Translations under genes and position numbers: made by a program
DNA from: Bathymodiolus brooksi
Taxonomy: Eukaryota > Mollusca > Bivalvia > Mytilida > Modiolidae
DNA length: 64,000 bases
Direction: 5' to 3'
NCBI GenBank assembly: GCA_963680875.1
Contig: OY804590.1
Coordinates: 23,064,640 to 23,128,639, forward strand
Part shown: in pieces, positions 32,401 to 62,688 of the stretch
Layout: each line of letters starts with the position of its first letter
How positions within the stretch are numbered: the stretch's first letter is position 1
Notes under the pieces: generated by a model
What the model was told of the DNA's origin: nothing
Seen by the model: only the letters and a program-made list of their open reading frames with translations
Database searches by the model: none

Positions 32401-35400
32401 GTATATGATTGATGGATTGATCTGTGTGTAATGCCTACTTAAGAAAATATTTCAGCTATATTGTAACATGAACAAATTTTATAATTTGATTTTCTTAAAA
32501 AGAAGGCTTAGGTTTTGGTGTTTAATGCCACTTTCAACAATATTTCAATTAATTCGTGGCAGTCAGTTTTATTGTTGGAGGAAACCGGAGTACCCAGTGA
32601 AAACCATCGACCTGTCGCAAGTCACTGACAAACTTTAAAACATGATGCTGTATGATAACTTTTATCGAGTACACCTTGCCATGAACAGGATTCAAACTCA
32701 CAACATAAGTGGTGATAGGCACTGATTGAAAAGGTACATGTAGTTGTAAATTCAACTACCATACAATAACAACAGTCAACAATGATCCCTCTTAACAAGA
32801 AGACCCTTATAACTCAAATATATCTGAATAAGAAAACAATATGGTTATATACTGCACAAATAAAAGAAAAATTAATATGATATCATTAGATGTTTTCTTA
32901 AATTTACAACTTAGTATATAAATCAATTTCTTATAAATTTGTAAATAAATCAGATAAAGCATTAACAGTAGAATAGCAGTAACATATCTCTACAGTCGAT
33001 CAAAGTTCACCACACTTGGTAAAACAGAGATTACTTTCTTCAGTTGAAATAAGGGCAAAGTGAGTGAAAATCTGTGAGACTTCTGAAAAGTTGCATGTAT
33101 TTTAATGTTTTCCCCACTACCACATGTCCCCTTTGGCATCACAAAACAAAAATGCTGCATGACGATCTTAAATATGATGCAATCAACAAATTTGGAATAA
33201 AATATTGAATATCAAACTCTGTATAGGTCAAATTTAAGGAACACGGGAGTTCCTTACACATGAAAAATATACTGCCTTCCAAAGACTGACGTGACAGGGT
33301 GACTAAAACTTCACCTTATAGTGGGAATAGGATGATTTCATTGACACCAGGGCAAAAAGGTCACCCATTTTTAACTGGCTTAGTGAATCCTGGTCGAGTA
33401 GAATATGCCTCAGTGAATAATTGGCATTAAACAAAATACATAGAGCTTATTCAGTTTTTGTCTTATTGATAGATGTACATCAAAAGTCTATCATACAATA
33501 ACAGAACCTGAGGGTTAAAAGGTCAATCAAAAGAAGAGGTGCATAAAATACACAAGTATGTTTTTATAAACAGCCATTTATCATCTGGTACCTGCAGTAA
33601 ATTCTGTTCCAGCTAGCTCTGCTGTAGAAAGAAAATCATCCAGATTGCTCTGTTCTGTGACTGACTGTAAGTTCAATCTTCCCCAGTCATAACCATCATT
33701 AAGTTCTGTTGTATGAAGCTAAAAAAATTATTTGAGTGCAACGATTAGCTTATTATAGGTTAAAGTAACTTTAAAGAAATAATTTGATGAGCTCTGTGGT
33801 CAGTTTTTCAAGAGCTAGAAAAAGAAGATATAAAATGAAATCTTTCAGAGTCCGTGTTGTTTCACTTTTTTATTTATTATTCATCTTTGTAGTTTTCATC
33901 TTTGTTGGATTTATTACTGATTGGTTTTTTTATTTCTGCAATGATGTGCTAAAACTTTTCCGCAAATTTCTTCGTTCTAATGACATCCCTCAATTCATCC
34001 ACAAGTGTTGGGATTTGGCTAAAAAAAAATAGTAGTTTAATCTGAATAATCAGATGCTTGTCATTGATTCATTTTTCCATTATAATCGGAGTTGTTCGTG
34101 TTTGTTACAAATTTAGGTGAAAATCTAGTTAATGATCACTCATAATTGAAGTTTATTATCATTACATGTAACAAGTGCTAGCCTCTATAAACTTGATGAG
34201 TCTATGTCAGTTTTAAGCTTTGAAAAAGCTGATTTATTGATTGCAAGACATACATTCTAAATACAAAACAGATTGTATTTCCAGAAAAGTATGAGATGAT
34301 CGAATTAATTATAATATCGAAAAATTGTAATCAATTGTCTTTGAAATTCAAGTAATATATCGATTTTTAATCATAATCGATTTTCGGAACACCACTAATC
34401 CACACATAACTCTCATAAGATTTGATGGTGTTTAAAAGATTTGAAAAATGTTTTCCAACCTGCAAATATTTATCATATTTTACACTAGGTGACATTCATA
34501 GCAAATACAACTTCTGCAATAATGCCCCCATCTTAATAAAGTTATTTCCATTATAGAGAGAAAATGGAGGGAGGCAGAATATAACGACTGAAATATTGAG
34601 GTTATTGACTCCCTTAAGTACAAAAGTAATTTGTTACTACACATGTACAGGGCTAGAAATTAAACACTAGCAAGCAGGCAAATTGCTAGTTGAAATTTTG
34701 ATTTGCCTTTATTTTGCTAGTGGCTAATATTATTACTAACAGAATTTTGCTAGTTTAAAAAAAACATGCATTCAGAATTGAATATGAAACAACTACACAT
34801 GTGTAAACTTGTACTTTTTGCCATTCACCACCTGAACATACCGTCTTTGTAATAGATGCTAAGGAAAAACCAGAGTATCTATTGACCCTATGTAAAGCCC
34901 TGAAATAATATCCGAACAACTGATTCTGGTCCTTGATTTCTAAAATAATATCGTGGTTTTTCCAGTTAAAGTAACCAGTTGCGAGAAAAATGTCAGAACA
35001 AAAATGTTCATGTCGATCACGATATTTAACAAAGTAAGAAGTACCATCGAGTTTCAGGTAGATTTATATTTTTACTGCGACTAAGTGGAAATATGTCAGT
35101 GCTTGTCGTGCATAAAACTTTGCTTGTTTTGTTTTTTTGACTAATAGTAATACAATATCATATAAATGTCAGTATGCTTGATGATGTTCGCTTGAGTCTG
35201 AGAGTTTTATTACTCCCAGTCTGAGCTCAAGGATCTGGAAATTGTAATGCAACAAGGCAGCGGTTCCCAAAGATTTACTGTTTAATTCATAGCTTTAATG
35301 CTTTCATTTTCCTATGACTATAAAGTATATATCTATACCCACAGGTACAGGGAAAGGACCCCCTTTTTTGACAATTTTTTTTTCTCATTTGAAGTATTTT

Positions 35401-38400
35401 TCCTCCGAGTGCGGTTAATAACATTAACTTACTATCCGCTGCAGTTTTCTATCCACATAATATTTGGTTACTATCAATATACAAATGTAGTAACTAACCA
35501 AATATTATGTGGATAGAAAACTGCAGCGGATAGTAAATTAATGTTATTAACCGCACTCGGAAGATAGTAAATTAATGTTATTAACCGCACTCGGAGGAAA
35601 AATACTTCAAATGAGAAAAAAAAATTGTCAAAAAAGGGGGGTCCTATTCCCGTGTACCTGTGTCTATACCCAAAAGAAAAACGACTTTAACGTAGTCTTG
35701 AAATTTAAAAAAATTGTGATTTAGCCTACTAAATCACTTTTGAAACAGATCACCATTCTGAGGACTTTATTGAAATATTTGATTGAACTGAATTTTTCTA
35801 AAGTTTAAATAACTAGAGCTACCCCATAGTTTTCATATTTCTTTTATTATAATTCTATTCCATTTCATCATGAATTTAAAAGTCAATTCATATTTTGTTT
35901 CATCGAAATACAAAAATTTCAATTGAAAAACGTTCGATTGCATTTACCCAAAATGTTATCACTCAGTCTGCTACTTTTTAATACATGTAGCTATATACCT
36001 GTAGCTCAGTCGAAGAGAATTCAGCTACTTTCATATTTCATACATTTTTCCATTTGCATTGTAGAAATACATTAATTGTCTCTAAAAATTATTTGTTAAA
36101 ATTGTACATTCTATCACACAAATTTAAAGAACATTTCAACATGTCAAATAGACAACTTTCACAATGCAATATGATCAGAGAGAGGGATTGCATGATTTTT
36201 TTCAATAAATCACATTAAACTTTGCTGATATAATTATTTTGTTAACACACTTATAATATTATGAAGCATGAATTTCGGGTTCAGTTTGGTTGCTAGTTGG
36301 GTCAGTATGTTTGCTAGTGGATTTTTTTACAACTAGCAAAGTTTTGCTTGTGGTGAAAGACATTAATTTCTATCTACATGTTTTTTTTTGTATTTTGTGA
36401 AGCTTTTCAACTTGTATGTTAAATAATGGTTTAAATGATTGACACAGGGCTCTACAATTCATACCAGCTCCCACTAGCCCCTGGCCAGTAAGGAAACATT
36501 TTTTACTCGCCAACAAAAGTACCTGTATGTTACTTGCCAGATTAATAAAGATACAAATTTGTACTATATAATTTCAATATGTATTTATTTATACATAATT
36601 ATTAATCCCCTGAATGAGACAGAAGATGCTTAGTTGAGGAATGGGCTTTTGCTGAACCTTTGGAACATTTTCATGCTTCAGACTTTTATTAAGAAAAACA
36701 AGACTTTCACATTTAAACGTTTTTACAGTAACAAATTCGGTTTTGACAGCAATATCTGAGCCTGCCTTTCTGCAAACATCACACTACATAATTAACGTTG
36801 CTACTGGAATCATAAATGTAAAATGAGCCACAAAAATTTTGACTTCCAGACATCGTGGAATTTGCACTTTCCACCTTTAAACCCGAAATTTCACCCCTTT
36901 TTGCTTGATACGTCCGTGGATATTGCATTAACAGGCCAGCTTTATGATAAGTTAATTCAACCGGTTTATTTTTAGCAAAATATTTTGTATGAAGGTTTTT
37001 TATTTTTGCTTATCGTGGTCACTTGCAAGCATTAAAAGTATGTGATTTAAAACTTTTATGTCGGAGTCCATTGTGCGGTTTAAAAGACTGAAAAATCCAA
37101 GTAGGATTTTAAAATGAAAAATGCGATCGGCGATGGTATGAAAATGTTCCAAAAATATCAACTCACCGTCAATACAGAATTTTTATTCGCATTTTACAAA
37201 AGTAACTCGCAAATGCGAGTGTTTTAGTCGCATTGTAAAGCCCTGTTGACATGTAATTGTATGTTGCAAAAACTGATAGAACAATATTTTCTGGGTAAAG
37301 ACATACAGTGATGATCTTTTTCATCAATTGAAAAACATATATTATTGGAGTTCTATGGTACAGTAGTAGTTAAATTTAAAATATGACGTTGAAAATTGGT
37401 TGAAATAGCACATGAATGCACAGCATCATAGAACCATCGGAACCACAGGATCACACTATAAACGAAAGAAGTTTTGTACTTGTCCTTTATGCTCCATATG
37501 GCATACATGTATGGACCTACATGCTATATGGTAGAATTTTGTTTTAAATTGAACATGTCCCTGTGATATAAATAAATTAAATTAGATCTCTTGAACTTTA
37601 TGATCACAACCCTAATCCTAATCTCCAACGAGATTAGGATTCCGAAGAAATTTTCTGTCTGTATCTTCATCCTAATCTCGTTTCAAGACCTATCAAGGGT
37701 ATTCTGGAAAATTAGAATTTGACCCCCCGGTGCATTTTGGCATGGATGGATTGTGTCAGATCAAGTGCAGGTAAGATTTCATATATAGACATATTTTCTA
37801 GTTCAAATCTGCAAAAATATTGATATTTCCTTACCTTTTACAGCGTATATCCGATAAAATAAACTAAAATCCACTTCGAGCTGTCTGCCATTTTAGTGAA
37901 CTCATGAACTACAAAAAATGTACACCACATGATCAAAATTGTCACGGATTTTGATACAGCCTGTTTCTAAATTAAAGGTCGATGTCAAATATTTATTGTG
38001 TAAATGCAAGCATATCCTTTATGGGCTGTTGATTGGTTTTAATAAAATATTTATAACAAAATTTTAAAACTTCAAGCAGTTTATATGGGATTTTAAAATT
38101 ATAATAAAATATTTGACATCGACATCTTGAATCTAGAAACAGGCTGTAACAAAATCCGTGACGATTTTGATCACGTGATGTAGTTCATGAGTTCACTAAA
38201 ATGGAAGACAGTTTGAAGTGGAATTTGGATTATTTTGTCGGATATATGCTGTATAAGCCTAAAAGGTAAGGAAATATCAATATTTTTGCAGATTTGAACT
38301 AGAAAATATGTCTATATATGAAATCTTACCTGCACTTGATCTGACACAATCCGTTCATGCCAAAATATCCATCGGAATGCACCGGGGGGGTCAAATTTTT

Positions 38401-46416: not shown

Positions 46417-47432
46417 GTAGCTGATTTCTTCTGTAAACTTAGATGGACCAGAGTTCATGCTTTTTTAATTGCTCTCAAAGGCTTATGTTTGGCTTGTGAT
46501 ATTTTGGATTATTCCATACTTGGTTTTGTTTGCCTAACTAGGATGTTTTTTTCCTGTGGATTGCCACTAGAACCTTGCTAAAAGGAACAAGTTGACGTTG
46601 TTCGTTTACAGCTTTTAACCTTTGTGCCTGTTCTTTTGAATTGTCAGGATCAACAACTGGTATTGGGTATGTAATCTTAATCTTTACATTGCTTTGTGTC
46701 AAAAAAGATACTCTTTTATTTCTTGTATGGTCACTTTGAAAATTCATTTACATTTGCGTTCTTAAAGGTATTTTACTTGGCTGACACGTTTTAACCCTGG
46801 AGTTTTCCTACTTCTGGTTTCCTGACCATGTATATATGTAACTTGGCTGCTTTTCGGCTGTTTTTGTACATCTGCAATTTGTAAATCCTTTTTGTTTTTT
46901 CTATGCTTCTTTTAGTGATACACTGCAGCGCAATTTCGAAAACGTGTGTAGTCGACAAAGACTAAAACGTTATGAGTCGTAATAAAAACGTAGATATCGA
47001 ATTTAGTGCGCAAGACGCGTTTCTGGAATAACCTTCAGCATGAACGCTGATAATCGAAAGAGTGGAAAGCCAAATACACCCCACTAATTTAAATGTCTTT
47101 GGGAGTAAGTAAATGTAACTGCCTAAATAGGATAGCCAAAATCTACTAAGGACTGAAGGAGGAGAACCTTAGTTTTAATAATAATTACACTGTTTTCATC
47201 ACGTAATCATCAGTTGGTCTTTGATCTCCGACCTTTTCTGGATATTGTAAATGTTTTCGCACCTGCTTGACGCAAACCAATTCTAATTATTGACGCGAGA
47301 AAACTGATAAGATACTTTTAAGGATCGTCTTGGCATAACAGTAATAAACAATGTCTAGCCACGTGACTGGATGACGCAATTGATAATCTGGGCTTTAGTT
47401 CAGGTTTCAATAAATTACAGGGATAAAGTTAT
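46417..47432 (+). repeat. R1 repeat, copy a
   Basis: Starts GTAGCTGATTTCTTCTGTAA and ends AATTACAGGGATAAAGTTAT, where copy b begins at once (head-to-tail). Lacks about 80 bp present in the other copies (CCACGTTTCTCCCAAG... to GATCA). Landmarks: GGTATTTTACTTGGCTGACA, CTTCTGGTTTCCTGACCATA, GATACACTGCAGCGCAATTT, GACTGAAGGAGGAGAACCTT, CACCTGCTTGACGCAAACCA. A coding-like minus-strand stretch starting MNFQSDHTRNKRVSF lies at 46747-46538. Confidence 0.88.
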
Positions 47433-48526
47433 GTAGCTGATTTCTTCTGCAAACTTAGATGGCCCAGAGTTCAAGCTTTTTTAATTGCTCTCAAAGGCTT
47501 ATATTTGGCTTATGATAATTTGGATTATTCCATACTTGCTTTTGTTTGCCTAACTAGGATGTTTTTTCCTGTGGATTGCTACTAGAACCTTGCTAAAAGG
47601 AACAAGTTGACGTTGTTCGTTTACAGCTTTTCACCTTTGTGCCTGTTCTTTTGTGCCACGTTTCTCCCAAGTAAAACCTTTGATATATATTGGTATTTGG
47701 CTTTCTGTAGTTTTACAATACCTGCATGATCATTGTCAGGATCAACAACTGGTATTGAGTATGTAATCTTAATATTTGCATTGCTTTGTGGCAAAAATGA
47801 TATTATTGTATTTGATGTATGATCACTTTGATAATTCATTTACATTCGCGTTCTTAAAGGTATTTTACTTGGCTGACACGTTTTAACCCTGGAGTTTTCC
47901 TACTTCTGGTTTCCTGACCATATATATCCTTTGATGCAAAGAGGAACATGGCTGCTTTTCGGCTATTTTTGTACATCTGCAATTTGCAAATCCTTTTTGT
48001 CGTTTCTATGTTTCTTTTAGTGATACACTGCAGTGCAATTTCGAAAACGTGTGTAGTCGAGAAAGACGAAAACGTTAAGAGTTGTAATAAAAACGTAGAT
48101 ATCTAATTTAGTGCGCACGACGCGTTTCTGGAATAACCGTTATCATGTACACTCATAATCGAAAGAGTGGAAAGTCAAATAATTTAAATGTCTTTGGGAG
48201 TAAGTAAATGTAACGGCCTAAATAGGATAGCCAAAATCTACTAAGGACTGAAGGAGGAGAACCTTAGTTTTAATAATAATTACACGTGATTTGATCACGT
48301 AATCATCAGCTTGTCTTTGATCTCCGACCTTTTCTGGATATTGTAAATGTTTTCGCACCTGCTTGACGCAAACCAATTCTAATTATTGATGTGAGAAAAA
48401 TAAGATGCTTTTAAGGATCGTCTTGGCATAACAGTAATAAACAATGTCTAGCCACGTGACTTGATGACGCAATTGATAATCTGGGTTTTGGTCCAGGTTT
48501 CAATAAATTACAGGGATAAAGTTATT
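47433..48526 (+). repeat. R1 repeat, copy b
   Basis: Full-length copy of about 1.09 kb directly following copy a and leading into segment X at 48527. About 90 percent or more alike to the others by eye. On minus the segment MNYQSDHTSNTIISFLPQSN (47839-) corresponds to the one in copy a. Confidence 0.88.
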
Positions 48527-49728
48527 TATCCTGCAATCAGTACATTTGCTGTACAAATATACCATACGACTAAATTTTTGCTTTATTCGTAGCCTACGAA
48601 TAAACTTTTGAAGCCTACGAATAAACTTTTAAACCTACGAATAAACTTTTAAGCCCCGCCCATAGATTCCGGAACTACTTTTTTGTATGTTTCTGCTCTC
48701 CTGTGAAGGAGGTACAATATCAACCGTAACCAATGTCAATAATCGACGTCGTCTTTTTCTAATAAATGTTTTCGTTCTCACTATTTGTAAATTTACAAAC
48801 CGACAAAATGAAACTAATAATTTTAAAATTTCATATTTTTTATACATATTTTACGATAAAAAAAATCCTAGAAGTCAATAAAAAACAAAACAAAAATCTT
48901 AAACAAATCCGAATCATTTATAACTTGACAGGGAAGCTTTGAAAACAAAACAAAAGCAACTAAAACTACAGGACAAAGGGAATAAACCAAAGAGGGCATG
49001 CCCTCCAACAGATGAGGAAATTAACATCCTTTATAACAGAAACGTTCTGGGCAGTCACACACCACAATCTTTACTAAACACACTTATATGGTTAAATAAC
49101 TCAGTACAGTTTGAACATTAAACTCTAAGATTACTACATATATTTTATTATAAAATTTCTTCATATTAAATGTTCAATTAATTCACATCAATTACTTCAA
49201 CATATCAGATAGTAGATTTCTTCAAGGTGAAAAGATCACATATTCCTGCTATTGCATCAAGTCACTTTAAAATTATAGATAATTATTTATATTCTGAATT
49301 CTTTATGACACCACAAAATATCTATATAATTTGTTTTAACCATTTGGAATAATTGTATTCAGTCACTTCCTCCAATCATTTTGCATCTTTTTTTTTCTTT
49401 TGCAAAATTCCAACAAAGTTGTATGATTTGTCAGTTGAAACTAGTCTTTTATCTGCTGGAATTCTACTCACTGTTGATCAGGATTACAGTACATTTTTTA
49501 TTTTGTGCAATTCCATTTGAAACTGATTCACATACCCCTGGCCTGTATGCAACAACTGAGTGATAGTTCTTGAAAAATGTTCTTTGTTTAATCAGATCTT
49601 TATAAAACGTTCATTGGTTTTTATGCAATTATTTCTTTCATATATATAGTCTTTTGCACTTATTTCAAACATCACATGTACATTGTACACTGTTAGACCA
49701 TTAATCCAGCCATTCATCTGAAAGACAT
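48527..49728 (+). repeat. Segment X, copy 1 (linked to R1)
   Basis: About 1.2 kb, near-identical to 57590-58790. Begins with TTTATCCTGCAATCAGTAC, then three short direct repeats of CTACGAATAAACTTTTRAA (48589-48652), and AT-rich sequence. It ends near GACCATTAATCCAGCCATTC, where the two copies diverge. Short open frames in it are preserved between copies only because the copies are recent; no protein family is recognised. Confidence 0.9.
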
Positions 49729-50359
49729 TAATATAGCATTGATTATAAATAAAATACACGTTATTATATATTTACTAATAAAATAACAAGAAAAAAGGAA
49801 CAAAATGCAGACTAAATTAGCAATGTTTGAATATTTGAAACTTCAAGCTTTCATAATGCATTTTTGTATGATCCGACTCAGAAAATATATTCGCACATTA
49901 GTCATTACTCGCAACAGCCAACATTATCATGTAAATATTGTTCATTCCAGAAAAATATATCCTTCACTCTAATATTTTTCTGGTCACAACACTTATGCAA
50001 TAAACCTATGTCCATAATATTCTTGGTTCCTTAGTGACATCGCATTATGTAATTTACCAATCAATGGATTATGGTTTAATAATAGAAAATTTGATATGAA
50101 GAAAATAGTTGGTGGGGATTCTACATACATGTAGACTTCAATGCATATTAATTCATTTGATTATGATATACAAACAGAAGTTAAATATAGTAATTAAAAT
50201 CATATCTGGTGCTTGTTGACACTAAATCAGATCTCTATTTTGATTTTCTTCAATTTACCGTGTATATATGAAAGATTTATTTTATTCTATAAAAATAAAT
50301 TCCAATTTTCCATTGAAACCTATGTAAAGTCCAGAAGATTGGTATTAGCTTCTCCTCCT
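49729..50359. other. No gene seen
   Basis: AT-rich, unique sequence between segment X copy 1 and the possible TIR element. Confidence 0.45.
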
Positions 50360-51195
50360 TTATATAGCCCGGGGTTCTATGGTACCGCGGTACTTAATGT
50401 TTAACGTCTGTGTAACGTAACTAGTTTTCGGAATGAATCCAAAAATGTTATATTTTATTCCCCGATATAGAAACCTATTTTCCCCCACAATTCATTTTAT
50501 TCTTTGAATTTGTTTAAAAATATGTCGCCACTTTTCTCTATGACAACGCCGATGTACCTCCCAGAAATGGTTTCCTATGATATCGAGGTAATTGCTAAAT
50601 TAATGTTATGGGACACAATGTTTGATAAATCAAGACATCGTTTATAAATACTAAATCAAGGTGAATATCTGGCAAACTTATACCATAAAGAAAATCTTGA
50701 TAATTTATCACATTTAATAAAGTAAAGTTTCTTTGAAATAACAAATGTAACGAAGTTGAGTCAATTTGATGTAACGCTATGTTGGTTAATATGTTTTCAT
50801 AGCTTAATTTTTCCATCAACTTTGTCGGTCTAGAAAGTAACTACAAATAGCACCAAAAATACCAAATCGGGTTGAAATGAAGCGTAAACAAACAGACGAC
50901 ATTTCTAAAGAAATAGCAGACGAATTATGACAACTATGGTTTAATTATTGGACATTTTACAAAGCATGGTATCAGGGTAAAATAAAAATGTCCGCTATTT
51001 CTAAGGAAAAGATAAAAATGCGTGTACTTACAAAAATTCAAGACATTTGGACAGAATGACCAGACGTTCCGATAAATGTGACTGTTGTGTTTATGAATAT
51101 ATAAATAGAAAAACCGGCGGGTGGCACTGCAGTACATAGGAACAGACAAAATAAATACCGCGGTATCATAGAACCCGCGGTACCATAGGAAGGGA
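50360..51195. mobile_element. Possible TIR element of about 830 bp
   Basis: Imperfect inverted ends of about 40 bp: left GGGGTTCTATGGTACCGCGG TACTTA (50370-50395), right (inverted) GGGTTCTATGATACCGCGG TATTTA (51156-51180). A weaker related motif (TTTCCTATGATATCGAGGT) lies inside at 50571-50589. No transposase and no clear target duplication. A non-autonomous DNA transposon is the likeliest reading. Confidence 0.5.
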
Positions 51196-51201
51196 GTATA
51201 C

Positions 51202-51589
51202 TTGCATTGTCGCAAAATACATAATTTATTTGTACGAGCTTTAGAAACAGGTAGAAAAGTGCATGAAAGAAAACTTTCCAGTCTCATGAAAAAAATGAAG
51301 GAAAGTTGCAAATTAGACATTAATCAATCAGTGGCAGTGCCAGAAAATATCTTGTCCCGTCTAGAAGTTAAGAGAAAACAATGTGGAGGGAATCTATAGA
51401 TATTATGCAAATATCAGGGCATAAAAATGTGGCATTTATTAATAATTACTCAACATTGAGTGAGGAAAGACACAAGAAAATATCAAACATCCTCAGCAAC
51501 ACTGAAAGTAAAACTAACAGAAATGCTTTTCAGCAAACTTACCTCGTAAAACCTCCACAAATTCTACAGCCAGTAGCACTTCTGATGTT
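51202..51589 (+). pseudogene. Crypton-like tyrosine recombinase remnant, part 1
   Basis: The plus frame at 51381-51530 encodes IMQISGHKNVAFINNYSTLS followed by EERHKKISNILSN. This is the G-H...N-N-Y end of a Crypton (DUF3504-type) tyrosine recombinase, where GH and the final Tyr are catalytic-core positions. Upstream, in another frame (51202-51399), is a basic stretch [19 protein letters not shown]... of unclear origin. Downstream a frame change near 51535 leads to ASSTSDV, where the foldback element at 51590 interrupts. The N-terminal recombinase domain is missing. Part 2 is at 53137-53249. Confidence 0.65.
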
Positions 51590-52357
51590 GGATCTCCTGT
51601 ACTTGGCGATCACTAGTATAATTTTTTTTTTCCAGTATTGTGAATTTTTTTCAAAATTTTGTACAATACTGGTATACCAGTAATGTAATTAAGATATTGG
51701 TATTGTAATTCAATTATGAAATTGGATTGCTTCATATTAGAAGGTTCATGTTATCAACTGTTGAAAAGCATACTAAAAGTACAAGTTCATTGTGTATCAT
51801 TTTATTGGCATTTATAACATCGTATCAGTAATACATCACAATACACAACAATCCATTATGGATAGAGTCAAGATTATTATACAGCGACACAAGAACAGCT
51901 ACTTCAAGAACTGGTCTACCCAGGAACTAACATTTCCACAATACCTATTATAATACTTACTACAATACTATACACAAGTAAAAAAATAATTTTTTTAAAT
52001 CACAATACTGGTACAATACTGGTATACAATACTGGAACAAATTTTTATACCAGTATTGTGCACAGGTACTTGTGGACAAGACCCTGTGTTGCTCCCTTTT
52101 TTTTTTTTTTTAGCATCGACTTTTTGTCATATAAACAACATTTTGCAACTTTATATGTATCACTGTATGACATATATACAATAAATACAATCAAACAGTA
52201 GTTTCTATCCATGCCGGGTTTCTGACAAGATATAAGTTAGAAGGTAAGTCACTCTTCTTTGTTTACTTGTTGTGTATTCATCTTAAATTTAGTGAATGAA
52301 AAAGGCCTACCTGTCTGGAAATTGGCTTATTCCTTCTCTGTATATATTATTCTCCCT

Positions 52358-52444
52358 GAAAACACACATCAATATTTATTTACAGCAGCTGACAACTCAC
52401 CATTGAACATTTTCCACTCGCGTTTTGCGATTTTCAGACGACAT
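52358..52444 (-). CDS. Candidate outward-facing first exons, left arm of the foldback
   Basis: Mirror image of 52683-52816 with the same sequence: ATG TCG TCT at 52444 downward encodes MSSENRKTRVENVQ plus two bases of a Trp codon, then GTGAGT; a second segment after TTTTCAG encodes ENNIYREGISQFPD and stops at AG|GTAGGC (the second segment extends to about 52311). No family is recognised. The implied intron is only 45 nt. This could be a captured gene start or chance. Confidence 0.3.
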
Positions 52445-52485
52445 TTTTGAAAACTCGAATTAAAGCTACGGAAGTGTGATTATTA

Positions 52486-52499
52486 GCGACATCTGCTGG
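52486..52499 (-). promoter_or_regulatory. CTCF-like motif, left arm
   Basis: Minus strand CCAGCAGATGTCGC, one mismatch from the CTCF core CCASYAGRKGGCGC. It has an exact mirror at 52628-52641. Binding is not shown. Confidence 0.3.
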
Positions 52500-52557
52500 T
52501 CATTTGAAATATTGACGATACGGTAAAACGCGGGAGTTCCGGGTAAAATTAAATTTT

Positions 52558-52565
52558 GCGCCAAA
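52558..52565 (-). promoter_or_regulatory. E2F-type site at the palindrome axis
   Basis: TTTTGCGCCAAAA spans 52554-52566; on minus 52565-52558 reads TTTGGCGC, the E2F consensus. It sits at the axis (52563.5) between two outward-facing ATGs about 120 bp away on each side. Function is inferred from sequence and position only. Confidence 0.4.
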
Positions 52566-52627
52566 AAATTCCCGAACTTTTTACCCGGAACTCTCGCGTT
52601 TTACCGTATCGTCAATATTTCAAATGA

Positions 52628-52641
52628 CCAGCAGATGTCGC
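52628..52641 (+). promoter_or_regulatory. CTCF-like motif, right arm
   Basis: Plus strand CCAGCAGATGTCGC, mirror of 52486-52499, so the two motifs point away from each other across the axis. Confidence 0.3.
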
Positions 52642-52682
52642 TAATAATCACACTTCCGTAGCTTTAATTCGAGTTTTCAAAA

Positions 52683-52816
52683 ATGTCGTCTGAAAATCGC
52701 AAAACGCGAGTGGAAAATGTTCAATGGTGAGTTGTCAGCTGCTGTAAATAAATATTGATGTGTGTTTTCAGGGAGAATAATATATACAGAGAAGGAATAA
52801 GCCAATTTCCAGACAG
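52683..52816 (+). CDS. Candidate outward-facing two-exon gene start, right arm of the foldback
   Basis: Exon 1 at 52683-52726 encodes MSSENRKTRVENVQ(W) and ends TG|GTGAGT. After a 45-nt gap ending TTTTCAG, exon 2 at 52772-52816 completes the Trp and encodes ENNIYREGISQFPD, ending AG|GTAGGC in phase 2. Unspliced, the frame closes at once (TGG TGA). Both exons are identical in the left arm. No homology is recognised and no third exon was found before the element ends. The short intron is a reason for caution. Confidence 0.3.
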
Positions 52817-53136
52817 GTAGGCCTTTTTTATTCACTAAATTTAAGATGAATACACAACAAGTACCCAAATGTAAACAAAGAAGAGTGACTTACCTTCTAA
52901 CTTATATCTTGTCAGAAACCCGGCATGGATAGAAACTACTGTTTGATTGTATTTATTATATATATGTCATACAGTGATACATAGAAAGTTGCAAAATGTT
53001 GTTTATATGACAAAAAGTCGATGCCAAAAAAAAAAAAAAAAAAAAGGGAGCAACATAGGGTCCTGTCCACAAGTACCTGTGGTATTGTGCACAATACTAG
53101 TATACCAGTATTGTGATCGCCAAGTACAGGAGATCC

Positions 53137-53249
53137 CTGATGTTTCGTGTCGAAGCAATCCCGATGTTCCTTCTTACAGTTCCAATACAAATATGTCAAG
53201 TCAAATTAGTTCTATGTTTTACGGCGTGGTCATCCATAACAAATGGTGA
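53137..53249 (+). pseudogene. Crypton-like remnant, part 2 (C-terminus)
   Basis: After the second CTGATGTT the plus frame reads SCRSNPDVPSYSSNTNMSSQ, then ISSMFYGVVIHNKW and a stop. This is in frame with ASSTSDV just left of the element when one target copy is removed. The S-x-MF-x-G-x-x-I ending followed by a stop is typical of Crypton/DUF3504 proteins (recalled from the family, not searched). Confidence 0.6.
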
Positions 53250-53465
53250 ATGTGTACACAATTTTCACAAATGACTTATATCCCAATAACTGAGCATTTG
53301 AGCGTTTGACATCGTTGTTAAATACATTTCCGTGAATCAGTTCAGTTTGTTGAGATAAAAGATTAATCTTTCTGTTTTCTCTACTCTACCTAGTTTACTT
53401 AAAACATGCTCGAATCGTCGATACATGTATGTGTGTGTTGCTTTCACATGTTTACAAACTGTGTG

Positions 53466-53717
53466 GGTCATACTTAAATACGCCTGCAGTAGTAACCAGG
53501 TAAATATATACGCCTGTTTGTCATACAAAGTTGGACGCCTGCAACTATATGGTTCTTTTTTTTTTAATATAAACTAGTAAAAGGAATATATCGGATGTTT
53601 ATTATTTGATATAAAAAAATAAAAATAAAAGTGAACCATATAGTTGCAGGCGTATACCTTTTCACACAGGCATATATATTTACCAGGTTACTACTGCAGG
53701 CGTATTTAAGTATGACC
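53466..53717. mobile_element. Foldback hairpin of about 250 bp
   Basis: Arms GGTCATACTTAAATACGCCT GCAGTAGTAACC...GGTAAATATATA and ACGCCTGCAACTATATGGTTC are mirrored on the right by GAACCATATAGTTGCAGGCG TATACC and by GGTTACTACTGCAGGCGTAT TTAAGTATGACC. The spacer is AT-rich. Non-coding. Confidence 0.82.
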
Positions 53718-54014
53718 GCATGTGACGTATGATCGATAAATTAATGTGTTTTCATATCTATGAAAAACATATTAAATATATATATTTCAGGTTCTAAACT
53801 ATCAATTTTCTATATAGATTTTCATCTTAATCAATAAATCTTCATTTAAATAAAGTTATTTCACTTCCTTTTGAGAACTATTTGTTCGCGAATTTTTGTC
53901 GGCAAAAAAAATCTGGTATTTTATTACGCCAAATAGTGAGGATTCCGTTGCATTAAAAAAATGCATTTTTACGAGTTAAGATTATTTTTTAGGACATCGT
54001 GGATTGCAGGATAA

Positions 54015-54164
54015 ATACAATATTGGTCTGTTGACGGTAAATATAGAATTTATTTGACTCGGCGCGAAACGGGGAGAAAGACGCGCTAAAAGCTCGTCTT
54101 TCACCCCGTTTCTCAGCCTTGTCAAATAAATTCTATATTTACCGTCTACAGACCAATATTGTAT
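54015..54164. mobile_element. Hairpin MITE of 150 bp abutting an R1 copy
   Basis: ATACAATATTGGTCTGT, GACGGTAAATATAGAATTTA, TTTGAC and AAACGGGG...GAAAGACG are mirrored in the right half around a loop near 54079-54090. R1 copy c begins 2 bp after its right end, so the element sits exactly at the R1 boundary. Confidence 0.82.
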
Positions 54165-54496
54165 ATGTAGCTGATTTCTTCTGCAAACTTTGATGGCACA
54201 GAGTTCAAGCTTTTTTAATTGCTCTCAAAGGCTTATGTTTGGCTTATGATAATTTGCATTATTTCATACTTGCTTTTGTTTGCCTAACTAGGATGTTTTT
54301 TCCTGTGGATTGCTACTAGAACCTTGCTAAAAGGAACAAGTTGACGTTGTTCGTTTACAGCTTTTAACCTTTGTGTTTGTTCTTTTGAGTAACGTTTCTC
54401 CCAAGTAAAACCTTTGATATATATTGGTATTTGGCTTTCTGTAGTTTTACAATACCTGTATGATCATTGTCAGGATCAACAACTGGTATTGAGTAA

Positions 54497-56826
54497 AGGT
54501 AATAACAAAATTACCGAACTCCGAACAATCTTACAAAGGGAAAGTCAAAACTCATAATTATATAAACAGACAAAATCAGTCAACAACCGGAAAACTGTGA
54601 AAACCGTAATGACCCTGACTTGGTACAGGCATTTCTAAAGAAATGGTGGGTTGAATCAGATTTTAAGGCGCCAAACCTCCCGCTCTCATTACGGTTCAAA
54701 GGTTCCGGCTGTCACTGTAACAGTATTTAAATACAGGAACAAAATAGGTAAAATAGTTGTCAAAGCAGTACCATATTCGGTGACGTAAATGTCAAAAATA
54801 TTTTTACGTCACACATTGACAAAAAAATTCTTGACATTTTTGACTTCTTTATCTTTATACATTTTCATATGAAAATGCATCGCTTATAATTTTTTCTGCA
54901 GAGACGGAATATATTTCGACAAGATATTGGTATCGGAATATAAACTTTTTAAGAGATCGAATAAGGCGAATCTTTTTATAGCCCTGGTCCAGTAGCCTGT
55001 TTCTCAGATAAAGATGACGTTTCAGGAAATCAGAATAATTGCTACTGGCCCTTGCAATGCGAATCAATTGCGAGATGTAAACACCATATGCAGGAGAAGC
55101 TGGTATATTGCTGCACATGTTTGGAAAATTTATGATTTTAAAATTGAAGTCGTCCCGCTTATCATAAATTTTAGTACTGAGTTGACCACTGTCGTCAAAT
55201 TCGAGGTATAAGTCCAAAAATGATGCGGACGAAGCTGTATCGGTGGTCTCTTTTAACTTCCAGCTCTGGAGGATATATCAATGGAAGAAATTCTGCAAAT
55301 CTAGAATTATTGATAGACAAAACGTCATCAATATACCTGTATGTGAAATTAAAGGCTCTAGCCTCATGAATCTTCTTATCTTTTACAAGCTTTTGAAGAA
55401 TCTCCGACTCATATGAGTATAAAAATAAATCGGCTAGAAGAGGGGCACAATTCGTACCCATTGGTATGCCGACGACCTGCTGAAACAGTGTCCTTCCAAA
55501 GGAGACAAATATGTTATCGATGAGGAACTCCAGCATACTGATCACTTGTTTCTCCGAGTAGCATATTTTACCTTTATGAATTTTGTTTGAAAAATATGTG
55601 GAATTGTAGCCTAACACAACAAATTTTGAGCCATAGTTTCTATGACTAAAAGCTTTATGAATTGTTTCTTTTAAGCGGGTTTTTAATTTGTCATGCGGTA
55701 GGGTGGTATATAGAGTTGAAAAATCAAAGGTTTTGATGGAGGATACCTGAGAGAAATATCTTGATTTCAGGTTACCCAAAAGATCTTTAGAGTTTTTCAA
55801 AATCCACATGTGATTTATGCCACTACGCGAGTAAACAGTTTCACAATATTTCTGTTGTCCCTCTTTTACTGCAGACAGAATCTTTGTCAGGTGAATAGAC
55901 AATTCTTTCGTCGAACAAGTTGATGATCCCGCTATGTACCTTTCTTTGTATGGTGTCTTAAGGAGTTTAGGTATCCAATATAAATAGGGTAAATCCTCAG
56001 ACTCTTTACCAGAGGGAATGTTTAAAGAGGTCATGAATGATCTGTGGTTAGCTAGGATTTCATCTTTGTCGAACGAAGTTGGTTTGTATGTGGTATTACT
56101 AGAGGTGTTGCTATTTATGCCTAATTCCTTGATTAGGCATTCGAAGTAATATGATTTACATACAAACACGATATTGTTGGAAGCCTTGTCCGCAGGAACG
56201 ATAACATATTTGTCATGAAGAGAGGAAAAGCACTTAACAGCTTCTTGGTCTTTAAATACAGACTTAGGTCGACTATTAACACAATTTTTGAGTTTGTGAA
56301 TCCGACCTTGTACTAGAGACCTAATTGTTCTAACCCAGTCTGGCAAGGACTCTAACTCAGGATCTTGGTCTACTTCTCTCTTTATCCACCTTCTGGCATA
56401 ATCCTCAACAGCATCCATAATTATCTTGAAATTATGTTTCCAATTGATGTGTTGAGGTTCTCTGAATTTAGGACCATGAGAAATCACCTTTCGGAGACTC
56501 TCATGTTGAATGATATTCAGATCACCAGTGATTACATGTCCAGATGGGTTGTATTGAAAAGGAGAGTGGGAGCAGTCACAAATCAGAGGGTTCTTAATGT
56601 ACTCTTTTATGTTAATATCTTGCAATGCTTCTTTGTAGTTGAAAATTTTACCGCCAATGCTGTTAGTGTAGCTATAGGAGACAATGGGAACAGATTGATT
56701 TTTGAAATATGGTGGAATTTCTTTTACGACCTCTTTTCTATTAAGAATGTTGCTGATGTTAATAGCATCGATTCCTTTATTAGCAAACGGAATATGGAGG
56801 AATTTTCTGTTGTTATCATTAAGAGG
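54497..56826 (-). mobile_element. Penelope-like retroelement, 5'-truncated
   Basis: A 2.33-kb insertion in R1 copy c. On minus, coding sequence starts right at the junction near 56826, and the 3' end is GAGTTCGGTAATTTTGTTAT TACCTT at 54520-54497. There is no GIY-YIG segment and no terminal repeat. Empty-site comparison with copy b shows no obvious target duplication and a 1-bp loss. The family call rests on the reverse-transcriptase motifs (next entry); assignment to Penelope-like elements rather than another non-LTR class is from recall. Confidence 0.85.
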
Positions 56827-56842
56827 TAATCTTAATCTTTGC
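54855..56842 (-). pseudogene. Reverse transcriptase of the Penelope-like element, frameshifted
   Basis: The first frame (56842-55195) covers an N-terminal region with CDCSHSPFQYNPSGHVITGD, then KYVIVPADKASNNIVFVCK, DLPYLYWIPKLLKTPYKERY, FDFSTLYTTLPHDKL (motif A), GIPMGTNCAPLLADLFLYSY (motif B) and FTYRYIDDVLSINN (motif C, the YIDD catalytic pair). Near 55210 the frame shifts, and the C-terminus continues at 55217-54855 with LDLYLEFDDSGQLSTKIYDK and NIPASPAYGVYISQLIRIAR, ending SYENV. The first ATG (56842-56840) lies in the flanking R1 repeat, so the native N-terminus is missing. Dead copy because of the frameshift and truncation. Confidence 0.88.
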
Positions 56843-57589
56843 ATCGCTTTGTGGCAAAAATGATATTATTGTATTTGATGTATGATCACTTTGAAAATTC
56901 ATTTACATTCGCGTACTTAAAGGTATTTTACTTGGCCGACACGTTTTAAACCTGGAGTTTTCCGACTTCTGGTTTCCTGACCATATATATCCTTTGATGC
57001 AAAGAGGAACATGGCTGCTTTTTGGCTGTTTTTGTACATCTGCAATTTGCAAATCCTTTTTGTCGTTCCTATGTTTCTTTTAGTGATACACTGCAGCGCA
57101 ATTTCGAAAACGTGTGTAGTCGAGAAAGACGAAAACGTTCAGAGTTGTAATAAAAACGTAGATATCTAATTTAGTGCGCACGACGCGTTTCTGGAATAAC
57201 CGTTATCATGTACACTCATAATCGAAAGAGTGGAAAGTCAAATAATTTAAATGTCTTTGGGAGTAAGTAAATGTAACGGCCTAAATAGGATAGCCACAAT
57301 CTACTAAGGACTGAAGGAGGAGAACCTTAGTTTTAATAATAATTACACGTGATTTGATCACGTAATCATCAGCTGGTCTTTGATCTCCGACCTTTTCTGG
57401 ATATTGTAAATGTTTTCGCACCTGCTTGACGCAAACCAATTCTAATTATTGATGTGAGAAAAATAAGATGCTTTTAAGGATCGTCTTGGCATAACAGTAA
57501 TAAACAATGTCTAGCCACGTGACTTGATGACGCAATTGATAATCTGGGTTTTGGTCCAGGTTTCAATAAATTACAGGGATAAAGTTATT

Positions 57590-58790
57590 TATCCTGCAAT
57601 CAGTACATTTGCTGTACAAATATACCATACGACTAAATTTTTGCTTTATTCGTAGTCTACGAATAAACTTTTGAAGCCTACGAATAAACTTTTAAACCTA
57701 CGAATAAACTTTTAAGCCCCGCCCATAGATTCCGGAACTACTTTTTTGTATGTTTCTGCTCTCCTGTGAAGGAGATACAATATTAACCGTAACCAATGTC
57801 AATAATCGACGTCGTCTTTTTCTAATAAATGTTTTCGTTCTCACTATTTGTAAATTTACAAACCGACAAAATGAAACTAATAATTTTAAAATTTCATATT
57901 TTTTATACATATTTTACGATAAAAAAAATCCTAGAAGTCAATAAAAAACAAAACAAAAATCTTAAACAAATCCGAATCATTTATAACTTGACAGGGAAGC
58001 TTTGAAAACAAAACAAAAGCAACTAAAACTACAGGACAAAGGGAATAAACCAAAGAGGGCATGCCCTCCAACAGATGAGGAAATTAACATCCTTTATAAC
58101 AGAAACGTTCTGGGCAGTCACACACCACAATCTTTACTAAACACACTTATATGGTTAAATAACTCAGTACAGTTTGAACATCAAACTCTAAGATTACTAC
58201 ATATATTTTATTATAAAATTTCTTCATATTAAATGTTCAATTAATTCACATCAATTACTTCAACATATCAGATAGTAGATTTCTTCAAGGTGAAAAGATC
58301 ACATATTCCTGCTATTGCATCAAGTCACTTTAAAATTATAGATAATTATTTATATTCTGAATTCTTTATGACACCACAAAATATCTATATAATTTGTTTT
58401 AACCATTTGGAATAATTGTATTCACTCACTTCCTCCAATCATTTTGCATCTTTTTTTAAAACATTTTTTTCTTTTGCAAAATTCCAACAAAGTTGTATGA
58501 TTTGTCAGTTGAAACTAGTCTTTTATCTGCTGGAATTCTACTCACTGTTGATCAGGATTACAGTACATTTTTTATTTTGTGCAATTCCATTTGAAACTGA
58601 TTCACATAACCCTGGCCTGTATGCAACAACTGAGTGATAGTTCTTGAAAAATGTCCTTTGTTTAATCAGATCTTTATAAAACGTTCATAGGTTTTTATGC
58701 AATTATTTCTTTCATATATATAGTCTTTGCACTTATTTCAAACATCACATGTACATTGTACACTGTTAGACCATTAATCCAGCCATTCAT
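57590..58790 (+). repeat. Segment X, copy 2
   Basis: Near-identical to 48527-49728, including the triple CTACGAATAAACTTTTRAA at 57652-57715. It has a small length change around the TTTTTTT(AAAACA)TTTTTTTC run at 58450-58470. After 58790 it is followed by R1 sequence (copy d), unlike copy 1. Confidence 0.9.
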
Positions 58791-58796
58791 ATTATC

Positions 58797-59526
58797 CAAA
58801 TGATATTATTGTATTTGATGTATGATCACTTTGATAATTCATTTACATTCGCGTTTTTAAAGGTATTTTACTTGGCTGACACGTTTTAACCCTGGAGTTT
58901 TCCTACTTCTGGTTTCCTGACCATATATATCCTTTGATGCAAAGAGGAACATGGCTGCTTTTCGGCTATTTTTGTACATCTGCAATTTGCAAATCCTTTT
59001 TGTCGTTTCTATGTTTCTTTTAGTGATACACTGCAGCGCAATTTCGAAAACGTGTGTAGTCGAGAAAGACGAAAACGTTCAGAGTTGTAATAAAAACGTA
59101 GATATCTAATTTAGTGCGCACGACACGTTTCTGGAACAACCGTCATCATGTACGCTCAAAATCGAAATAGTGGAAAGCCAAATAATTTAAATGTCTTTGG
59201 GAGTAAGTAAATGTAACGCCCTAAATAGGATAGCCAAAATCTACTAAGGACTGAAGGAGGAGAACCTTAGTTTTAATACTAATTACACTGTTTTGATCAC
59301 ATAATCATCAGCTGGTCTTTGATCTCCAACCTTTTCTGGATATTGTAAATGTTTTCGCACCTGCTTGACGCAAACCAATAATATTATTGATGTAAGACAA
59401 ATAAGATGCTTTTAAGGGTCATCTTGGTATAACAGTAATGATCGATGTCTAGCCACGTGACTTGATGACGCAATTGATAATCAGGGTTTTGGTCCAGGTT
59501 TCAATAAATTACAGGGATACAGGTAT
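58797..59526 (+). repeat. R1 repeat, copy d, 5'-truncated
   Basis: Starts inside the R1 unit (CAAATGATATTATTGTATTT) and runs to AATTACAGGGATACAGGTAT, where copy e begins. Landmarks as in copy a. Confidence 0.85.
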
Positions 59527-60556
59527 GTAGCTGATTTCTTCTGTAAACTTAGATGGACCAGAGTTCATGCTTTTTTAATTGCTCTCAAAGGTTTATATTT
59601 GGCTCGTGATATTTTGGATTTTTTCTTACTTGCTTTTGTTTCCATAACTGGGATATTTTTTCTGTGGATCGCTACTAGAACCTTGCTAAAAGGAACAAGT
59701 TGATGTTGTTCGTTTACAGCTTTCAACCTTTGTGCCTGTTCTTTTGTGCCACGTTTCTCCCAAACAAAACCTTTGATATATATTAGTGTTTGATTTTCTG
59801 TAGTTTTACAATACCTGCATGATCATTGTCAGGACCAACAACTGGTGTTGGGTATGTAATCTTAATCTTTGCATTGCTTTGTGTCAAGAAAGATACTCTT
59901 TTATTTCATGTATGATCACTTTGAAAATTCATTTACATTCGCGTTCTTAAAGGTATTTTACTTGGCTGACGCGTTTTAACCCTGGAGTTTTCCTACTTCT
60001 GGTTTCCTGTCCATATATATCCTTTGATGCAAAGAGGAACTTGGCTGATTTTCGGCTGTTTTTGTACATCTGCAATTTGTAAATCCTTTTTGTCGTTTCT
60101 GTGCTTCTCTTAGTGATACACTGCAGCGCAATTTCGACAAAGTGTGTAGTCGAGAAAGACTAAAACGTTACGAGTTGTAATAAAAACATAGATCTATCGA
60201 ATTTAGTGTGTACGACGTATTTCTGGGACAACCGTCATCATATACACTCATAATCGAAAGAGTTGAAAGCCAAATACACCCCACTAATTTAAATGCCTTT
60301 GGGAGTAAGTAAATGTAACGGCCTAAACAGGATAGCCAAAATCTACTAAGGTCTGAAGGAGGAGAACCTTAGTTTTAATAATAATTACACGTGTTTTGAT
60401 CACGTACTCATCAGCTGGTCTTTGATCTCCGACCTTTTCTGGATATTGTGAATGTTTTCGCACATGCTTGACGCAAACCAATTCTAATTATTGATGCAAG
60501 ACAAATAAGCTGTTTTCAAGGATCGTCTTTGCATAACAGTAATGACCAATTTCTAG
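59527..60556 (+). repeat. R1 repeat, copy e
   Basis: Starts GTAGCTGATTTCTTCTGTAA head-to-tail after copy d and breaks off at ACCAATTTCTAGC (about 60556), short of the usual CACGTGACTTGATGACGC end. The most diverged copy; its minus-strand coding-like stretch has in-frame stops. Confidence 0.85.
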
Positions 60557-60879
60557 CATTTCAATATGCGTGGTCTTGAAGCAAAACAGAGTTCTATTCA
60601 TAGAAGAACGGGTGTCATTGTTTGCCAGAATATTCTTCGAGAACAGTGATAAATACAGAAGTGTGCAAACAAGTGGACAACAAGTTGACTTCTGAAGCAG
60701 ATTTCATGTACGGTTTATGTAAATTTTCTACCTTGAGATCAAAGGTAAGTGTTAAAATTAGAGAGGTCAATATTAAGATCCATTTTTTGGGTTTGTATTT
60801 TTTTTTTTGTAGTCAGAAGTTTGAAACTGCATGTCATAGGTCTAAAGATAAATTCTGACGGCTCATTATCTCCGTAAGA
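60557..60879. other. No gene recognised
   Basis: A good donor-like AAAG|GTAAGTG at about 60745 ends a short plus frame (60622-), but the frame resembles nothing known. Confidence 0.35.
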
Positions 60880-61300: not shown

Positions 61301-61689
61301 TTTTTATTTTTGTGATTCGAACCTCATAATAGATATAATTGAACTTCATGTCATTACATCCATAATGTTTCTCCTTTTGTTTACAATACTGGACAAGATT
61401 ATTCAGAGCTAAGAAATATATAGCTCTAGCTTTGTAAAAAATAGTAACAACTATTGTGCATTTCAATAATCTAATTTAACGTATCCAAATATATAGAAGC
61501 TATTAATAGACACATTCGGAATGATGCATCATCTAGGGAAGCTTAGCACAGCAACCAATGACACCACGAGAAAAGATTTAGAAAGTACGCTGTTTAAACT
61601 TGAAGGTCAGTTATATTTAAATCATCATCTTAGAGTCTTAATAAGCAGAATCTCGCAATATCATAGAATAAATACAGTCAAACGGTGTC
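61301..61689. other. No gene seen
   Basis: AT-rich; one unsupported 63-codon frame at 61521-61712. Confidence 0.45.
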
Positions 61690-62688
61690 TTCAACCTATG
61701 CCAACATTTTGAAATATCATATTCAAGGTATGCCAACTTAATTAATGACATTTACAGGTAAGTAAATTTGGAAATACAGGTCTCAAAAGTGAAATTTATT
61801 ATTTGAAAAAAAAAAAAAACGAAACAAAAAACAATCTAAAAATCTGTTAAAATTTAATAACTTGAAAAAAAAAATTAAACTTTTGTAAAAAATTATATAT
61901 AAAATAAAAATCTGGTAAAATTACACAAAAATCTGTAAATAAAAAAGATGAAAACATAAAATTTTAGAATAATTTAAATAAACAATCTTTCTAAAACGTA
62001 TGAATTCAAAATATTATATGATACTCATGCAATTAAGCAATTTTCTTAAAATCTAAATGCAAAAGTTTTTAATAATATTTATTTATAAATTTAGAATTAA
62101 CTTGTTATGATAATTTCTATGATTTCGAAATCGAACATTGTTATCCAAAATCTAAGACAATTGTATTTTTAGAAATTTGTAATGTGATTGTGTATACTGA
62201 TTGTTTTTGGTTATTTTGATAAAGTATGATAAAAAAAATATCTGTGCCTATAATATATTTAATTTATTTTCATGAAGTATGATAAAAAAAAATATCTGTG
62301 CTTGTAATATCCTAATTTATTTTCATGATGTATGATATAAAAATATATACATGTATGTTTATAATATCTTATTTTATTTTTATAATGATTGATGTTAAAA
62401 TATACGTGCTTATAATAATATCCTAATTATTTTTATAAAGTTTGATATTTAAATATATGTGCTTATATACTGATTTTTTGCTTGTTATTTCCATAAAATA
62501 TGATTTTAAATACTTACTTTCTACTTACTATTCATTAAAAATTAATTGAGTACATTGACATCTGCCCCGATTTTACACTAATTAAACATGACTAGTCATG
62601 TTTATATAACAATTAACCTTTTCAACCTATGCCAACAATCTTTCTTACCTTTTTATATATATTTTTTAAAATGTTGGCATAGGTTGAA
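61690..62688. repeat. AT-rich segment bounded by TTCAACCTATGCCAACA motifs
   Basis: TTCAACCTATGCCAACA occurs at 61690 and 62621 (plus) and inverted at 62672-62688. The last two form a perfect 17-bp-arm hairpin; the outer pair could be terminal inverted repeats of a 1-kb element. Inside, about five loose copies of a 55-65-bp unit (TATGATAAAAAAAATATCTG TGCY TATAATAT) run from 62220 to 62500. No coding capacity. Confidence 0.5.

Follow-up and report, generated by a model that had tools for sequence, protein, structure and literature searches.

Around position 52563.5 of the 64 kb of DNA analysed here (the window) lies a near-perfect foldback, each arm of which reads outwards like the beginning of a gene. 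This raises the question of whether the foldback is a mobile element, and whether its arms hold the captured start of a gene, a fragment of some other mobile element or a likeness that arose by chance. The locus is made of nested insertions with exact 8-bp duplications, its arms are near-identical and both carry the gene-start-like pattern. The best reading of this arrangement, which we judge moderately probable, is that the 5' end of a gene was captured in the manner of a Pack-TIR and mirrored into both arms.

Nested transposons and their arms

The interval 52311-52816, which the sequence-only reading had singled out, is the core of the foldback. The elements, their flanks and the two palindromes elsewhere in the window which share their types of ends are as follows:

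51582-51589: left flank of the outer element, 8-bp target duplication CTGATGTT, identical to the copy at 53137-53144
51590-53136: outer DNA transposon, non-autonomous, with the 24-bp terminal inverted repeat GGATCTCCTGTACTTGGCGATCAC (ends complementary at 24/24 positions)
51662-52058: left side of the outer element, CAATACTGGTATACCAGTATTG-type repeats (at 51664, 52014 and 52037)
52053-52060: left flank of the inner foldback, 8-bp target duplication GTATTGTG, identical to the copy at 53082-53089
52061-53081: inner foldback transposon, non-autonomous, with termini CACAGGTACTTGTGGACARGACC and ends CACAGGTAC...GTACCTGTG
52258-52548, minus strand: left inner arm, 99% complementary to the right inner arm
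52549-52578: unpaired loop of 30 nt at the axis
52579-52869, plus strand: right inner arm, 99% complementary to the left inner arm
53082-53089: right flank of the inner foldback, 8-bp target duplication GTATTGTG
53137-53144: right flank of the outer element, 8-bp target duplication CTGATGTT
35340-35662: second palindrome with CACAGGTAC ends, flanked by the target duplication TCTATACC (35332-35339, 35663-35670)
37584-38538: palindromic transposon of 955 bp with ends like those of the outer element, target duplication ATTAAATT at 37576-37583 and 38539-38546

The inner foldback (52061-53081) is inserted inside the outer element (51590-53136), and each has its own exact 8-bp duplication. The right side of the outer element has a further CAATACTGGTATACCAGTATTG-type repeat, at 53092. 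Both types of ends are found once more in the window, in each case bounding a different palindrome that is flanked by an 8-bp duplication. The sequence CACAGGTAC occurs four times in 64 kb, where 0.33 are expected (at least four in 0/100 shuffles), and all four sites are the termini of two palindromes: the inner foldback and 35340-35662. The ends of the palindrome at 37584-38538 differ from the terminal repeat of the outer element at 6/24 and 7/24 positions. Because the end types recur in this way, mobility is well supported by the anatomy, and it is the best supported part of the interpretation of the foldback. The proposal that the palindrome is mobile is thus borne out by termini and target duplications which the sequence-only reading did not mention.

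Concerning its class, the inner element has the terminal inverted repeats and target duplication of animal Pack-TIRs and contains no transposase of its own; its longest ORF (fully within 52061-53081) has only 63 aa, so that a transposase must be supplied from elsewhere. As in FB-like foldbacks, most of its length is taken up by the arms (488 and 503 nt of 1021 bp, with the 30-nt loop). A target duplication of 8 bp is typical of the hAT superfamily, and the inner element has this length. The same length is given for the P element in an excerpt of PMC4168063.

The outer pieces of the foldback arms are 98% and 96% complementary. Within the inner 452-462 nt, the arms are distinguished by one indel and five substitutions, all outside the region 16-251 nt from the inner edge in which the putative exons lie, and farther out there are two additional substitutions and a difference in poly(A) length. 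The near-identity of the arms could reflect a recent origin or gene conversion, and the differences are so few that they provide no argument for selection.

Some minor observations concern the outer element. Its arm matches 61658-61753 weakly (67%). An open frame at 51372-51587 adjoins its left end and contains a GHK...Y pattern, which we take to recall the C-terminus of a tyrosine recombinase; a comparison of this frame with Pfam and PDB gave no match. A 115-codon frame across the joined flanks (the other frames have 22 and 58) was dropped as evidence and is given no weight, since at the filled site the same frame continues into the element without a stop for ~30 codons.

The gene-start-like segment

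When the sequence was reread, the axis at 52563.5, the coordinates, the mirrored ATG exons, the GTGAGT donors, the TTTTCAG acceptors and the second segments were all found as the sequence-only reading had described them. The segments of the two arms are:

52683-52726, plus strand: putative exon 1 of the right arm (MSSENRKTRVENVQ-W), ATG at 52683
52727-52771, plus strand: putative 45-nt intron of the right arm (GTGAGT...TTTTCAG), donor GTGAGT at 52727
52772-52816, plus strand: putative exon 2 of the right arm (ENNIYREGISQFPD), followed by the weak donor GTAGGC at 52817
52401-52444, minus strand: putative exon 1 of the left arm, ATG at 52444
52356-52400, minus strand: putative 45-nt intron of the left arm, donor at 52400
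52311-52355, minus strand: putative exon 2 of the left arm, donor at 52310

Read outwards, the order is identical in both arms: ATG, 14 codons and a split TGG, GTGAGT, the 45-nt intron, TTTTCAG, an in-phase segment and GTAGGC. The ATG frame starts ~105 nt from the loop and is directed outwards. Past the donors the genomic frames are soon closed (TGG TGA after exon 1, AGG TAG after the second segment).

The pattern of ATG exon, donor, acceptor, in-phase segment and donor was searched on both strands of the window, with a 57-bp satellite excluded, and has two starts, both in these arms. In dinucleotide-shuffled arms it appears in 0/4000 cases, and a repeat run with the same rules gave two starts in the window and 1/1500 shuffles. 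Looser rules give four starts and 1/1500 shuffled arms; the two extra starts, at 48847 and 57910, sit in 98% identical copies of one repeat. Very loose rules give 12 starts and 28/1500 shuffled arms. As the two arms are mirror images, they count as one independent observation, and both the rules and the motifs were chosen post hoc, with the sequence already known. Read with that reservation, the gene-start pattern of the arms is better than chance. The excluded satellite lies at 17917-26806 and comprises ~156 copies with 96% matches and long open frames throughout.

The putative intron is very short and contains AATAAA at 52747, which could cause a premature transcript end. Splicing is reported for human introns with lengths of 43, 49 and 56 nt in an excerpt of PMC4463651, so the splicing of a 45-nt intron is not impossible.

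Promoter-like features near the axis

Three motif sites lie between the two putative first exons:

52558-52565, minus strand: TTTGGCGC, an exact E2F-type 8-mer across the axis, not above chance level
52486-52499, minus strand: CTCF-like core CCAGCAGATGTCGC, 13/14, pointing outwards, one mismatch
52628-52641, plus strand: CTCF-like core CCAGCAGATGTCGC, 13/14, pointing outwards, one mismatch

The sites were scored against consensus sequences of these promoter motifs. The central E2F site of the sequence-only reading is present as an exact 8-mer across the axis, but its count is unremarkable: TTTSSCGC occurs three times in the window against 1.45 expected, and three are reached in 15/100 shuffles. 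For this reason the site is given little weight. The two outward near-consensus CTCF cores hold up better, being the only sites in 64 kb with at most one mismatch (0.10 expected); since they are mirror copies, they amount to one independent hit. Concerning CpG, the 240-nt interval at 52401 contains 20 and is the richest in 64 kb (mean 3.9). This value is inflated, as the inner arm enters it two times through the mirroring; a single arm, read from 52579, contains 12, a number which 3.6% of such intervals reach (those of the satellite included). ETS-type cores are found at 52585 and 52652, together with their mirrors; they are common, with 19 places in the window, four of them in these arms. The near-CTCF core and the CpG clustering suggest a promoter.

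These features also bear on the possibility that the inner element is an ordinary palindromic transposon which resembles a gene start by chance, its exons, motifs and donors being meaningless. The open segments are short, the intron has only 45 nt, the second donor is weak and the motifs were picked after reading; very loose rules give the 12 starts and 28/1500 shuffled arms mentioned above. In addition, the palindrome at 37584-38538 also shows, by eye, an outward ATG and a donor in its right arm, a look-alike with a broken left copy and a 26-nt intron, so that such patterns can be found if sought. Against this, the stricter rules match only the arms of the inner foldback and are almost never satisfied by shuffled arms, and the CTCF-like core and the CpG clustering coincide with the pattern. 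We consider a chance likeness unlikely, although it is the strongest of the alternatives. The palindrome at 37584-38538 was itself considered as a further case of gene-start capture and rejected, because the frame in its left arm is broken, the intron would have 26 nt and there is no CpG peak.

Origin of the segment and known systems

The putative 30-residue spliced product has no match in Pfam or PDB, which at this length is not a strong negative. Two protein searches with it, covering proteins of ~147-469 and ~404-1286 residues, gave no candidate parent gene sharing three words. As three shared five-residue words were required from 30 residues, and within limited lengths, a parent is easily missed; exon-wise gene models could also hide the product from a protein search. 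The database does include bivalve proteins, so the null is not due to missing bivalve data: a neighbouring ORF has relatives in Pinctada imbricata with 55-56% identity, and others 97% identical to it, among the matches listed (120 of 2003). Patterns of the terminal repeats and exons were found in 0, 1, 0 and 0 stretches of the viral and prokaryote collections, none of them in prokaryote contigs. The single viral-contig match fits a 23-base degenerate pattern, diverges beyond it and was set aside as chance-like. No Rfam family reaches the cut-off anywhere in the window.

A captured gene start, as the sequence-only reading had proposed, is plausible and explains the arms better than chance, but the limited searches gave no parent gene; we regard it as probable on balance, though unproven. 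A non-autonomous transposon with CACAGGTAC ends would have acquired the beginning of a gene, from the promoter through exon 1 and a short intron to the first part of exon 2, presumably of a host gene and most likely by gap repair or template switch. An inverted duplication of the captured segment, through template switching or snap-back repair, would then have given much of both arms, and the element with its mirrored segment would have been inserted into another transposon, mobilised by a transposase encoded elsewhere. The result might be divergent transcription from the axis, with putative splice donors through which exons nearby could be joined on. Both capture and arm recruitment have precedents: Ssk-FB4 took up a gene along with the region upstream of it, and the arms of Galileo took up internal sequence.

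That the arms instead derive from a different mobile element, or from part of the gene of the autonomous partner, appears rather improbable: Galileo arms did recruit part of their own transposase gene, as an excerpt of PMC4168063 describes, and the second segment reads into TAG and may represent the final codons of a gene, but the ATG frame points outwards, whereas the terminal promoter needed for an internal transposase gene would point inwards, which supports capture, and the product matches nothing in Pfam or PDB, its 30 residues being too few for this to count strongly.

The known systems were compared on the basis of excerpts of the papers cited. In animals, 370 Pack-TIRs are reported in 100 genomes (PMC8277862). 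Among foldbacks, Ssk-FB4 of Drosophila captured a gene together with its 5' upstream region, and the transcript of its X-linked copy is fused with adjacent sequence (PMC8277862). Ssk-FB4 and the inner foldback are alike in being non-autonomous, with terminal inverted repeats, a target duplication and long arms, and the putative gene-like segment of the latter resembles the gene sequence with 5' upstream region carried by the former. They differ in that the inner foldback has this segment as a mirror pair inside both arms and as a 5' end only, has a duplication of 8 bp and not the 9-10 bp of FB4 (PMC8277862), and has no parent gene found in the limited searches. Galileo is a foldback-like member of the P superfamily whose arms have taken in sequence from outside the termini (PMC4168063). 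It shares with the inner foldback very long inverted repeats and non-terminal sequence in both arms; however, the sequence it recruited comes from its transposase gene or from other transposons, and its duplication is mostly 7 bp as against 8 bp here. The Pack-MULE and Pack-TYPE elements of plants (PMC3310237, PMC8903248) likewise hold captured gene pieces between terminal repeats but are plant families. The combination which gives mirrored outward gene starts does not appear in the excerpts of the published accounts of Pack-TIRs or Galileo, and the titles and abstract openings listed in literature searches name no foldback with mirrored first exons, which does not prove that there is none.

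Should the segment be a captured gene start, its recruitment into the arms turns a promoter that worked in one direction into one for both directions, and does so in one step. Non-autonomous transposons would then have a simple way of spreading promoters and first exons. That the element acts as a mobile, orientation-independent promoter cassette, each insertion providing the genes on either side with a putative promoter directed outwards, a start codon and a donor, is a more specific claim and an improbable one.

The nested foldbacks are located within 46417-60557, a stretch of partial copies of one repeat arranged head to tail (e.g. 47763-49717 and 56826-58790, 98% identical). It contains a reverse-transcriptase-like ORF at 55195-56844 on the minus strand (RVT_1 20.7 bits, below the curated cut-off of 29.6), whose relatives among the matches listed (120 of 2003) include proteins of Pinctada imbricata and of a Lucinoma-symbiont assembly. 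These relatives make a bivalve the likely source of the window, which is eukaryotic. We take this repeat with its ORF to be Penelope-like. A small palindrome at 54015-54164 adjoins the start of one copy of the repeat and has ~69% identity to another at 12932-13121. Further small palindromes, assigned to no family, are found at 355-518, 8955-9122, 16583-16745 and 53466-53717.
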